From the NCBI GenBank assembly GCA_036925085.1, contig JAUPFP010000005.1:6285855-6349854 (forward strand): a stretch of DNA of 64,000 bases, in the 5' to 3' direction. Shown here in pieces: positions 6,067 to 52,931 of this stretch (positions within the stretch are counted from its first letter, which is position 1; every line of letters starts with the position of its first letter). Below the pieces are notes generated by a model that did no database searches, was not told the DNA's origin, and saw only the letters and a program-made list of their open reading frames with translations. The position numbers and the translations under genes were made by a program. This stretch comes from Brachycybe producta (lineage: Eukaryota > Arthropoda > Diplopoda > Playtdesmida > Andrognathidae).

Positions 6067-6702
6067 TAGAGTCCTGCATCGACCAGGGTGGTTATTAGCC
6101 GATAGCTGTTGGCCGAATTTTTTTATATAGGTCCATAGACAAATTCTATTTTGTGGGTAGCCTATTTGTTTAATTTGCCAACAGAAACCAATGGAAAAAA
6201 TTAGTAGGTCAACCAGCTTTTCTATTGGTCGAATGGGCCGTTTGGGTCGAATGGGCTGTTTGGGTCGAAAGGGCCATTTGGGTTGAATGGGCCACTTGGG
6301 TCGAATTGGCTGTTTGGGTTGCATTTGTTTTTTGTGAACATACATTTTTTGTCCCACATTAGCCTTCTCTATAATAAACCTATAGGAAGCTTCACTCTGT
6401 CAGTCCTGAGTTACTGCTCTATTTATGCTTAAGAATTCACTTCAAAGAAAAAATGGATGAAGGTGGGGCTGAAAATTCTGAAGTGGATGTTTTACAGCCA
6501 ACAGAAATGTTTGAATTTTGATAAAATTTATAAAAAAAAAAATATTTACTTTGTTGATTCTTTTAATAGCTTTATTCGGCGTTTAATTCGGCCCGGCCAC
6601 TTCATTCGACCCGGCTGATTTCTGGTCGACCATGACCGACCCCACCTTGTATGTTGAAACGGCTTGGCCGACCCTCAAAAAAATAAAAATGCAGGACTCT
6701 TA
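6067..6702. mobile_element. hAT-like non-autonomous element, TCGACC-word family
   Basis: The ends TAGAGTCCTGCAT and (reversed) TAAGAGTCCTGCAT are bracketed by GTTTGTAC (6059-6066) and GTCCGTAC (6703-6710): an 8-bp target duplication with two T/C differences. The interior is rich in GGTCGA/TCGACC and GGCC words and contains an 18-bp minisatellite. Length is 636 bp and there is no transposase frame. It begins 18 bp after the MITE-1 copy ends. Confidence 0.75.
6227..6322 (+). repeat. 18-bp minisatellite, about 5.3 units
   Basis: Units of GGTCGAATGGGCCGTTTG repeat without indels. The minus strand therefore reads as a Pro/Lys/Arg/Ile hexapeptide repeat, which I regard as a by-product. It lies inside the 6067-6702 element. 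Confidence 0.88.
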
Positions 6703-8046
6703 GTCCGTACTATCACCATCTGTGGTGGTGTAAGGAAAAACTGCCTCATTTGCAAAGATACACAGGGCTGCCACATGGTTGCAAAGACAACATGCCAGAC
6801 AACACCATGTGTGTGTGCGCGCGTGTATGTGGTCTTTCATTCTGTATTCTGATTTGGATGTGTTTACTCTTTGTGTGTGTTCTTTTTCTTCATGTGCGTG
6901 AGCTCTTTCACTACGTATTTTTGTGTGTACGCCCCCTTCTGTAATCTCCTCAACCATGTCTGTAGTCAGACCTCAATCTCTTGCCGTGTATTCCTTGTTA
7001 ATTTTATCTGTATGAAGGAGTAAAACTTGTGCTTCAATCTCATTGATCGATTGTTTTAAAAATGTTATATCCCTGCAGGTTTAAGAACGAAAACATCTGA
7101 TAAAACAACTGCAGGACTAATAAAACATCCAAATGCCTCATTTATACTTTATAAATAAAATAGAATTTCCTACATGTGAAACAAACAGCTTTTTTTTCTT
7201 CTACTCAAAAATAAACCTTCAATTAATATTAATAATTTTAATAAATAGAAATCAAGAGGAATTTGTTGTTTGGTAAAACAATGTGCAAGTAAAGTTTTAA
7301 AGTCTTAAAATTTGGTGTCTCTAAAGAAGGGTGGTAATTATCCTCCTCCTCCTCCTCCAAATGTTAACCCCTCTTTGTGAAACATCTCCCCTTTAAGTCA
7401 GACACTGCGGCTCGAATTTGCATACCAAATTAACTATAAGGCCTCTGAGATACAGATAATTGCGAATTTGTTCTCCAAATCGAATTTGTTGTTCTCCACG
7501 ACCGCCATTTATTTTTACAACAATGTAACAGGACAAATGAAAATCCATGTTATATAGGTGTATGTAGAAGAATATAAACCCCTTTTCCCATCAACCCTCC
7601 CCCCTCTTCTTTCATATCTTCTTCCCCCTCCTAATTTAAGTCAAAACTTAGAACCAAATGAGAATTGTTGAATGAGTTGTTCTCTTTGTATAATTAAGAA
7701 ATTAGTAGAAATCGACTTTAATTGGACAATGAGACACCAAATGTAAAAGAAAGAAGTTCTAGTTTTATTGAAAGTGAAAACGAGGAAGAAAGATGCTGGC
7801 TGCAAAATGGACTGCTGCAGCTTGTAAAACCACCTACCATGAAGTTCCATTTCCCCTGGAAATGTTTCTTTTTCATTTTCATAAAACAGTCCTGTTTCCA
7901 TTAGGTCAAAATACATAACTTTATAGAAAATTATTTTTCAAACGGCCACAAAAACGTTTATTTTTAAAAGATAACAACTTGAAAATAATGAGAACACATA
8001 CACCGAGAACTAATTTCATTTTCTATCAAAATCAATTTTCTTGTCT
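6703..8046. other. Non-coding stretch
   Basis: GT-rich sequence (TGTGTGTGCGCGCG near 6809) up to about 6950, then unstructured AT-rich DNA with a (CCT)n run near 7340-7357. The overlapping opposite frames at 7641-7916 look like chance. No gene signal. Confidence 0.55.
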
Positions 8047-8289
8047 TAAGCAGCGATCACACTTGCTATTTTTCTCACAAGATTCCATGCAAGAAATCAG
8101 TCAAATATTGCTATGAATCTTGCAGTTTCTTGCAACCCCCCCCCCCCCCCAAAAAAGATCATCATTTTCGGTAAGACAGTGGTGCAAGAAACCACTTTTA
8201 AGTCTTGCAAAAAATGTTATCACATTGGTAATTTCAATTAATTCAACTGACACATTGCAGTGAATCTTGCCAATCTGATCACCACTTTA
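8047..8289. mobile_element. MITE, group B, TTGCAAGA-word family (copy 1)
   Basis: The left end TAAGCAGCGATCACACTTGC is mirrored by GATCACCACTTTA at the right. It is collinear with 32093-32361 (CAAGAAACCACTT, GTCTTGCAA, CACATTGCAGTGAATCTTGC). The interior repeats CTTGCA/TGCAAGA words. A C15 run at 8136-8150 is at a position where the other copy has none. Confidence 0.8.
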
Positions 8290-8292
8290 AAG

Positions 8293-50178: not shown

Positions 50179-50305
50179 ATATATATATATATATTTATAT
50201 ATATATATATATATATATATAGAGAGAGAGAGAGAGAGAGAGAGAGAGAGAGAGAGAGAGAGAGAGAGAGAGAGAGAGAGAGAGAGAGAAAGAGAGAGAG
50301 AGAGA
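50179..50305. repeat. (AT)n(GA)n compound microsatellite
   Basis: About 42 bp of TA repeat joins directly to about 85 bp of GA repeat at 50221. The minus-strand Ser/Leu then Tyr/Ile frames are its translation. Confidence 0.97.
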
Positions 50306-52511
50306 CAGAAAGAGAGGGAATATATATTTCCAGATGCAAATTTCAAATGAGTGGTGGCTCTTTTATGACTTAAGTTATTTATATGCAAAAAAAAAAGCAT
50401 CACAACGAAAAGATCAAATTAGCTCACAGTCATTTTGGCACCGGTTACAGTTGTCAAGTTTAAACCATTCATGCAAAATGACGTCATCCAACAACAACAA
50501 AAATTGAAAAAAAAAAAAAATAACTATTTCGTACAGAGTGTTACAAAAACATTCGACATATATATTTCAGAAATTACAAATTATGCAAATCAAAACAATG
50601 TGATAGAAATGATTATTCGGCAAAAATTAAGAAGAATTAGAAACTAGAGGAGAGAATGAATCACTAAAGGGGGATTTTATGTTTGTATAATTAGAAAATA
50701 AACTAGTTATGACAATTTTTTTAAAGTACATTAACTTTTTGGACGTTATTCAAGCATTTGCTTTAGCCATTTAGCACAACTTTTAAGTAAAAAAACGAAA
50801 ATCGTGATTAAAAAAAAAATAACATGAAAACACTTCAGTAATCCATTAATTTTTACTCCTCTAGTTTCTTAAACGCTTTTCATTTCTTTTAATGTTCACT
50901 TACGAAATATATAGAATAACCACAGTTTTATTCTATTCTTTCCACTTTACTTAAATAAATTTGTAATTGCTACTAATAAATGACGAGCTTTTTTTTTCAA
51001 AACGTCACATTTCCATATTTTTATCCAAACCTATTTATAACCGCAGTTTTGTGATCTGTAAACCTTTTTTTACGCAAGTAAAATAAATCTAATAGTTATA
51101 AAAAAGCCAATCCAAATTCAGGTTTTCTATCAATTCACACATATAGAAAAATACGTTTTTTTTTTTCGTTTCTAAAAAATGTTAGTCACAAGACATATGA
51201 CGTTTTGAGAAGAAAAAAAAAAGCTCCTCAAATTGAGTTAAAAGCTTCAAAAATGCAGCATTTAAAACTATTTAAAATGTTGAAATATTTTATTGAAACA
51301 AATGAAAACTGAAACAGACATGAAACTGATCCATACAAGAATGCAAATCCACGCACGATAAATCCACCAGTACAACTTTTTCTCGCTGAAAGACGCTACT
51401 TAATGATGCTGAAAATCACAAGCTAAGTTCATCAACATTCTGAAACACCCTGTAAACATCAGGAGTCCCCCCACTGACTCCATTTATACTCATTCTACAC
51501 ACCTGTATCAATTTAATCTTAACTACTTTAACGAGAAAACGCTTAACTTTTTTTTTTTGTTTTTTATTCCTGAATTCTTCATTGTATGCAATTTGATTCA
51601 ATAAAGACAATGGAAACTGTCGCCGGTTTTTTTTTTCTATCTATATATACTGTCTATCTATCCATATATCTATAGGTGTGTGTGTGTCTTATTTTTTTAT
51701 AATGGGAAACCACTTTCATCATCATCCTTTTCATCCTTATTCTCATCATCCCTTTTTTTTTCTCTTTGTCTTTTTTTAATCTAAGGAAAGAATTGTGTTC
51801 AGGATGAAAAAAAGACAGACTTGAGTCTCTTGAAAAAAAAAAAGAGGCACTACTAATAAAACCTCATAAATCAACCAATCACAAGGGACCCATATAATAT
51901 ATATATATAGGAACACAAACTTCAAATTATTACGACAAACTTTTTGGCATCTCGTACATCATGAGAAAAAAAAATTTCAAATTTCTACACTAAGGGGAGG
52001 ATATCATAGGAGGAGAAGGAGGTCGTGGAGGAGAAATATATGTGGAGAAAGAACTAAGGTGCTTTTTATTCTCCATACCTAACCCCCCCCCAACCCCCCC
52101 ATATAGCCCTGCATAAGAGCCAAAAAAAATTATCAATAAAATTGTATTGGTCATTGAAAAAAAAAGCGAAGGGGAGAATTAAGAGAGAGGAAAAGAGGGA
52201 GGAGGTCAAGACAATCGCGTATTACTTATATTAAAATAGATTAAATTATTGGAGGGTAGAAGTGTGCAATCATCAAACTGGACATTTCCTTCAACCCCTC
52301 GAACACCTTACTCATATTTCTTTTTTTTAAGTGTCCATTTTAGAGATAGAAATATTACAAAGAGTAGGTTTCATATTTTTTGCAAGTGAGTGTGATTCAC
52401 AAAACGTGGCTCATATTGATGGCAGTGGTAGCTCAATAATCCCGTTTTTTAATTGTAGGTTTATAAAATAAATCCTACATAATTATTTACATTTTAAAAT
52501 AAAACTTAAAA
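50306..52511. other. Non-coding stretch with fold-back fragments
   Basis: TTAGAAACTAGAGGAG near 50637 and CTCCTCTAGTTTCTTAAACGC near 50856 are inverted arms about 220 bp apart, and ATAGAATAACCACAG near 50910 resembles the fold-back end. C-runs lie near 52085. No gene. Confidence 0.5.
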
Positions 52512-52931
52512 GTCGCGATGAGACATTCGAATAATCGAATCCCGCGAATCTTGAAAAATATTCGAGATTCGAAAACTTGAATCTTCGCGCTTTTTTTTCG
52601 TCTTGCGAATCTTTCGAATCTTAACCTTAAAAAAAACTGTTAAAAACTTTGGTAAAATTACTTTCAACTACATTAACGTCCAATAGAAGCGTTCACTAAC
52701 AAAAAAAAAACCCGGCGATTGTTGCAATTTCGTTGGAACCCGGATCACCACTATCATCACCTTGTGGCGACCCTGAATGCCACACTGTTTTTTATTATTA
52801 ATAATTTAATATTTCATTTATTTGTATCTTTCTTAATGAATCATATAGGATTCTTATATGAAGAATTCGAGAGATTCGAGAACCTTTTAGGATTCGGATT
52901 CGAGAAAATTTAGGATTCGTCTCACACTTCT
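52512..52931. mobile_element. hAT-like element, GATTCG-word family
   Basis: Exact 8-bp target duplication ACTTAAAA at 52504-52511 and 52932-52939. The left starts GTCGCGATGAGACATTCGAA; the right reversed is AGAAGTGTGAGACGAATCC. The body is dense with ATTCGAAT, GATTCGAG and GCGAATC words near both ends around an AT-rich middle. The plus-strand frame at 52719-52913 is short and without a known domain. Confidence 0.82.

Follow-up and report, generated by a model that had tools for sequence, protein, structure and literature searches.

Introduction

In Hermes, a hAT element of the house fly, two BED fingers cooperatively bind a quasi-palindromic pair of the subterminal repeats AAG(T/C), and in Tol2 a perfect palindrome, AAGTACTT, follows the inverted repeat (both from excerpted parts of PMC10368747). 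When hAT-encoded BED proteins were assayed on microarrays they recognised diverse motifs, private to the protein in most cases, and all four hAT proteins that yielded a motif had matches in the subterminal regions of their own elements (PMC8097297, in excerpt). Hermes explains the recognition of subterminal repeats by BED fingers, and the microarrays show that hAT BED specificities differ; natural sets of transposase, end and word are few.

Here we analyse 64,000 nucleotides of the Brachycybe producta genome (assembly GCA_036925085.1, contig JAUPFP010000005.1, positions 6,285,855 to 6,349,854; the whole stretch is called the window), with a guanine-plus-cytosine content of 27-38% per 2 kb. A first-pass annotation had grouped seven ends in this window as variants of one hAT-like pattern near YAGRGRTGNCA, each with an interior array of its own word: E1 (window position 6067), E2 (23785), E3 (30541), E4 (52931, reversed), E5 (46032), E6 (29760, reversed) and E7 (43380, reversed). 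Its proposal of parallel hAT families with their own words, as plausible transposase sites, is borne out for four of the seven and probably for a fifth. We consider it likely that these five are non-autonomous members of separate Ac/BED-type hAT families whose private words serve as BED sites.

Results

Target duplications and tips of the window elements

The genome searched comprised 295 Mb in 442 contigs. First-look DNA searches gave 68 candidates for E1, 1069 for E2, 568 for E3, 3638 for E4, 76 for E5, 435 for E6 and 666 for E7, with 40 scored per family throughout. The searches supplied 30 loci for E2 and 8 for E5, each including the window copy, and extra stretches were fetched for E1 (10), E3 (10), E4 (12), E5 (8), E6 (10) and E7 (8).

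Ends were chosen by tip similarity alone, and flanks were called duplicated when at least 6 of 8 positions were equal. Copies in which two ends could not be recognised were set aside before counting (E1 0 of 11, E2 3 of 30, E3 0 of 11, E4 4 of 13, E5 4 of 9). Among the scorable copies, duplications flanked 7 of 11 for E1, 22 of 27 for E2, 4 of 11 for E3, 5 of 9 for E4 and 1 of 5 for E5, against 6/341, 5/837, 7/341, 2/279 and 1/155, respectively, in offset controls; perfect 8/8 duplications numbered 5, 16, 1, 3 and 0. The 39 duplications carried T at position 2 in 20 cases and A at position 7 in 22, a bias in line with nTnnnnAn, the target of Ac-type hAT elements. The string nTnnnnAn itself occurs in PMC10368747 (in excerpt).

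Two window copies were counted as matches in this tally. E2 lies at 23785..24608 on the plus strand, with ends CAGGGTGGC..GCCACCCTG and word GATTTAAATC, and its duplication CAACAAAC is perfect (8/8; 23777..23784 and 24609-24616). E3 (30541..31071, plus strand; ends TAGAGATGTCAACGG..CCGTTGCCACCTCCA; half-site CGGTTC, palindrome core AACCGGTT) is flanked by ATTGTAAA (30533..30540) and ACTGTAAA (31072-31079), equal at 7/8. E1 (6067..6702, plus strand; ends TAGAGTCCTGCAT..ATGCAGGACTCTTA; word GGTCGA(CC/AT)) has GTTTGTAC on its left (6059..6066) and GTCCGTAC on its right (6703-6710); these agree at 6/8 by eye and scored 1/8 because the script set the right end one base off. E4 (52512..52931, minus strand; ends of its copies TAGGGATGGGACATTCG and TAGAGGTGGGACGAATC; word GATTCG(AA)) shows ACTTAAAA at 52504..52511 and again at 52932-52939, 8/8 by eye, and was dropped from the tally because its left tip mismatched the probe. 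The hAT-like copy E5 (46032..47187, plus strand; ends CAGAGGAATGCAACTAA..TTAGTTGCAAACCTGTA; word AGTCGACT) reached 2/8 in the direct 8-bp comparison. A possible duplication seen by eye, ACAGTGAT, stands at 46021..46028 and 47188-47195, the right copy abutting the end and the left copy set off by three bases, CAA. The sole supporting duplication of this family is that of locus L119, at 7/8.

The tips were examined against the same grouping. All seven quoted end strings lie exactly where the first-pass annotation placed them. The pattern drawn over them is weak: two of the seven tips match YAGRGRTGNCA without mismatch (E3 and E7, the latter being no end), and the remaining five depart from it at 4-8 of its 11 bases. 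The 11-mer, at one mismatch, occurs 15 times in the window and 7-16 times in each of 20 shuffles (mean 11.9), a frequency little above chance and inside the shuffle range; we rejected it as the common end pattern. What the ends truly have in common is the tip YAGRG; a YAGRG-like tip is the hAT tip consensus. Such tips with short inverted repeats are present in the copies of E1 to E4 and in several of E5, and the inverted repeat merges at its inner edge with the first word (CAGGGTGGCAGT-GATTTAAATC is an example). The tip is also found on one of three array-free hAT families (CAGGGCCGC, L067/68).

With their YAGRG-like tips and 8-bp target duplications, the E1 to E4 families are hAT elements. 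E5 is probably one too, given its single 7/8 duplication and a transposase-bearing partner described below. That the seven might instead belong to unrelated superfamilies and look alike by chance is true of E6 and E7, and the near-chance frequency of the 11-mer lends this idea some colour; for E1 to E4 the duplications and common tip refute it, the coding partner of E5 speaks against it there, and as an account of the whole group it is very improbable.

Two further observations concern these elements. A family of fold-back miniature inverted-repeat transposable elements (MITEs) with ends ACAGGCARTTAGAAAT occurs in the window at 5887, 8293-8498, 23654-24688, 30807-31012 and 61423-61627, with 8-bp duplications by eye (GTTAGAAT twice, AAAATATT twice, GATTAAAC/GATGAAAC and CTTTAAAG/CTTCAAAG); one copy hosts E2, and another is nested within E3, which it breaks up at about 30807-31012. 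Expanded copies stand at G000:C1:4398287-4398745, C52:762808-763364 and C9:2510833-2512552, E3 being expanded in 30-31-bp units and E4 in ~115-120-bp units.

Word arrays in the window copies

Exact word counts were set against 500 dinucleotide shuffles. E1 holds 8 copies of TCGACC (over 6067-6693; shuffle mean 0.10, maximum 2), E2 holds 2 of GATTTAAATC (0.01, 1), E3 holds 8 of CGGTTC (0.32, 3), E4 holds 2 of GATTCGAA (0.15, 2), E5 holds 39 of AGTCGACT (0.04, 1), E6 holds 1 of GTTCGCGAAC (0.00, 1) and E7 holds 3 of GTTTTAC (0.06, 2). The expectation that the arrays would be denser than shuffled sequence therefore held in part: all seven words exceed their shuffle mean, strongly in E1, E3 and E5 and by two or three copies in E2 and E7, but the counts of E4 and E6 were reached by single shuffles. 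When one mismatch was allowed, GATTTAAATC rose to 3 (mean 0.13, maximum 2) and GATTCGAA to 9 (mean 1.88, maximum 7), and the arrays of E2 and E4 are clear at this setting and in the genome copies. An unbiased comparison of the most frequent 8-mer with 200 shuffles placed E2, E5 and E7 above all shuffles and gave p 0.005 for E1, E4 and E6. Most of the 39 exact words of E5 belong to a tandem array of 16-bp units whose spacer is kept (46183-47128).

Transposase-bearing relatives

Used as a query, the hAT dimerisation domain produced 149 matches, 150 of 350 candidates being scored, and 30 loci were taken further. By hand count, C1 holds about 1/4 and C3 about 1/7 of the 149 matches, with base shares of about 7.5% and 4.6%. 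In the 1 kb around and downstream of the domain, the commonest 8-mer exceeded all 40 shuffles at 15 of the 30 loci, four of which are unclean: the word of L043 is of low complexity, and the top word of L051, L057 and L063 is not the family word, L057 and L063 adjoining other arrays.

Four array families carry hAT transposase sequence. The first is the E5 partner (C12:2099149-2103358, L127 and L039). Its two ends are CAGAGACGTGCAAACTAAAA and an inverse of it that differs in the first base, and it has a Dimer_Tnp_hAT domain (PF05699) at E 3e-21. The element carries AGTCGACT six times on its 3' side and once on its 5' side, among looser relatives, so that the partner and E5 window arrays have the word in common and differ in the spacer; no BED finger was recognised in it by eye. 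L041, with ends near TAGGGCTGGGCCGGTT and a duplication GTTGGTTG by eye, encodes an 85-residue remnant (Dimer_Tnp_hAT E 1e-18). The L045/L050 family has the end TAGGGACGGTRCGATAC and, at L050, a duplication CACTTACC (8/8 by eye); Dimer_Tnp_hAT was read in L045 at E 2e-16 and in L050 at E 4e-15, and L045 also has a BED finger (PF02892, E 9e-6). The best of six matches of the L045 piece in the PDB is a ZBED1 structure (E 0.0096). The fourth, the L060 type, has the end CAGAGTATTGGATTTGG and shows by eye the duplications gtccagac and atatacgt; Dimer_Tnp_hAT was read in L058 (3e-14) and BED in L133 (2e-8). The BED search gave 17 genome matches, and the finger was read in two array families only, through L045 and L133.

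Alongside these stand families without arrays near the 3' end: L047/48/62 (CAGTGCCGG), L065/66 (CAGTGGCGT) and the above-mentioned L067/68. The DNA examined stops short of their N-termini, so that no BED search was made there; of the three pieces tested, two showed DUF4371 and the third (C-terminal 239 residues) the dimerisation domain alone. The commonest 8-mer exceeded all 200 shuffles in the L041, L050, L060, L127 and L039 pieces and did not in the array-free L047, L065 and L067 pieces. A 776-residue BED/hAT gene on C33 showed no array or inverted repeat by eye in the 871 and 961 bases examined.

The search for autonomous partners, which the first-pass annotation had called for, yielded for E5 a transposase-bearing partner that agrees with it in the kind of end and in the word, and no coding partner for E1 to E4 among the copies compared. 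For E1, pairing of left and right end patterns by eye pointed to two copies on C20 (3.2-3.4 kb) and to three shorter ones, of 1.4-1.9 kb, on C9, C11 and C12. The longest reverse frame in a stretch from one C20 copy matched no Pfam family above cut-off. Four partial E1 copies comprised one with an insertion carrying its own word array, two that yielded nothing and one beside reverse-transcriptase-like sequence (RVT_1 E 2.8e-5, under the family cut-off).

Pairwise identity among the C-terminal dimerisation domains of L039, L041 and L045 is 30-36%, and the three lineages therefore do not have the look of a recent cloud. This bears on the proposal that end and word shifted together, stepwise, in a recent radiation. 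The common YAGRG tip combined with private words, and the merging of the inverted repeat into the first word, are what such a process might leave. Set against this are the divergence of the domains, the tip on an array-free family, and the core AACCGGTT, which occurs with two different ends (E3 family and L041), so that word and end are not strictly tied. We find the co-shift distinctly unlikely, and do not accept a recent radiation as demonstrated.

Several other arrays came to light. One of the palindrome CACAATATTATTGTG, flanked by inverted AAATGGGACATTT / AAATGTCCCAAACGGGC, is found next to hAT sequences in L063 (~1900-2150), L132 (~140-540) and L134 (1-375); in an array adjacent to the L057 element, on its downstream side, ATAAACCG occurs 16 times in 1 kb. 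At L135 (G000:C10:5433900-5435180) lies an insertion whose ends are near AGGTAGCACAAATCA and in which GTTGGCCCAACG-like words form an array, a further private-word element.

Specificity and form of the words

Half-sites were counted in the terminal 200 bp of each copy, or in one third of the element where shorter, over 11 E1, 27 E2, 11 E3, 11 E4, 9 E5, 1 L041, 1 L050 and 3 L060-type copies. Own half-sites per kb near the ends reached 16.1 (E1), 26.3 (E2), 35.3 (E3), 35.2 (E4), 13.1 (E5), 52.5 (L041), 42.5 (L050) and 20.1 (L060 type); foreign words were mostly at 0/kb there, with a background of 0.04-1.3/kb. The larger exceptions were in E3, where the L041 word reached 24.9/kb (through the common AACCGGTT core) and the E1 word 2.6, and in L041, where the E3 word reached 10.0; the E2 word stood at 6.7 in the L060 type and at 4.1 in E1. 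In the middles of elements own words fell to 0-8/kb, except in E3 (17.0) and E5 (33.9), the E5 figure reflecting an array that extends through the element. Copies are accordingly rich in the word of their own family and mostly without those of others, as had been proposed. The half-sites were picked after the families had been read, so that the near-diagonal matrix is partly by construction and no independent test.

Many of the words are palindromic: GATTTAAATC in E2, AACCGGTT in E3 and L041, AGTCGACT in E5 and TATCGATA in L050, with those of E1 and E4 partly so. L041 has nine exact AACCGGTT, five near the left and four near the right end, at within-side spacings of 10-36 bp, and L050 has eight exact TATCGATA, four and four, at 17-41 bp.

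This arrangement bears on whether the arrays might bind nothing and be minisatellites on MITEs, left over from slipped replication or repaired gaps. The 16-bp tandem array of E5 with its kept spacer has that appearance, as does the expansion of some E3 copies by 30-31 bp and of some E4 copies by ~115-120 bp at a time. The palindromes of L041 and L050, however, stand at irregular spacing between unlike spacers at both ends, the half-sites of E3 are irregularly spaced, the words are common to transposase-bearing elements, and array-free hATs coexist beside the array families. On balance we regard slippage alone as unlikely.

E6 and E7

Neither of the remaining items belongs to the group. E6 is an inverted-repeat element (29496..29756, minus strand) with ends near RGNNGGGTCCAGACTA, TTAA-like flanks and the words ACAGAAC / GTTCGCGAAC. 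No 8-bp duplication at 7/8 or better was found at its ends in 11 rows, some of them without both ends. Its copies align to the ends RGNNGGGTCCAGACTA, and the preceding sequence is TTAA or near it in several; TTAA stands on both sides in one copy (the second copy in L102) and within 14 bases upstream in 6 of 26 anchor matches, some of them interior. E6 was rejected as a hAT element on these grounds, its target duplications differing from those of the group. Kolobok elements have TTAA duplications and RR..YY termini (PMC9587614, in excerpt), and the likeness, which concerns E6 alone, lies in the TTAA-like site and RR start; the difference is that no transposase was seen in E6 and only one intact TTAA pair. 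Kolobok may serve as a lead for E6, not as a classification.

E7 (43225..43391, strand unassigned) is part of a longer fold-back family, with no end at 43380. Of the 8 copies fetched, 7 contained a match, at 1-5 mismatches over 25 bases, to a fixed probe spanning the quoted tip, those without a match being L086 and the mutated window copy, and homology therefore extends past the quoted tip; where the window has CAGGGATGTCAAGCC, the family has CAGTATGGCAAGCC. Position 43380 was rejected as a terminus, the quoted end being interior, and with it the membership of E7 in the hAT group.

Discussion

Parallel hAT families with their own words are real, and they are mostly ordinary biology and a clear natural data set. 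In the explanation we favour, the N-terminal BED zinc finger of each family's transposase would bind that family's word as a site or half-site, and abutting half-sites would form palindromes able to hold two BED fingers, with the constant tip handled by the catalytic core. Deletion derivatives would remain mobile by keeping tip and word array, and the arrays may grow through local duplication. The binding of word by BED finger in these families is thus a prediction, inferred from the anatomy of the elements.

A number of findings weigh against this explanation. E5 has one supporting target duplication in five scorable copies, its array is a regular tandem repeat, its word is denser mid-element, at 33.9/kb, against 13.1/kb towards the ends, and its partner shows no 8-bp target duplication by eye and has a broken reading frame. 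For E1 to E4, comparison by eye of the copy tables (40 scored each) with the hAT table revealed no coding partner, and in one of the two long E1 copies on C20 the 931-base stretch sampled contains no hAT domain. The full palindrome GATTCGAATC was not found in the E4 window copy even at a tolerance of one mismatch; in the E3 window copy the most frequent 8-mer occurs twice against a shuffle mean of 1.90 (p 0.89); and the L060-type word GGATTTGGATTT is a direct repeat and no palindrome. The late choice of half-sites for the word matrix belongs with these points.

A more far-reaching idea, tentative and rather doubtful, is that non-autonomous copies amplify BED sites to capture or titrate transposase, with array length under selection and private palindromes insulating families against cross-mobilisation. 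If this were true, one genome would hold a set of mutually insulated end codes.

The proposed BED-site explanation is best placed beside the systems already described. Among the matches listed, no openly available paper described hAT word arrays that are palindromes or private to a family. In this genome at least eight hAT families have word arrays and four of these also have transposase sequence, so that the BED-to-word code could be put to a direct test. Hermes has a CAGAG-type tip and an 8-bp target duplication, as do the E1 to E4 families here. The likeness extends to subterminal repeats and to a quasi-palindromic pair beside the left tip, which in Hermes engages two BED fingers; Hermes differs in its 4-bp motifs and its two palindromic pairs in the left end (PMC10368747, in excerpt), whereas the words here are 6-12 bp long, often perfect palindromes, and present in up to 39 exact copies per element. 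Tol2 likewise has its palindrome right after the tip, but the word is another one, and here words are repeated into arrays (same excerpt). For the hAT-derived CGG-binding proteins and hAT transposases the motifs were measured (PMC8097297, in excerpt), whereas ours are read from DNA alone. Taken together, the anatomy of the millipede elements fits a Hermes-like scheme, in which a constant tip would serve the catalytic core and a private word the BED finger.

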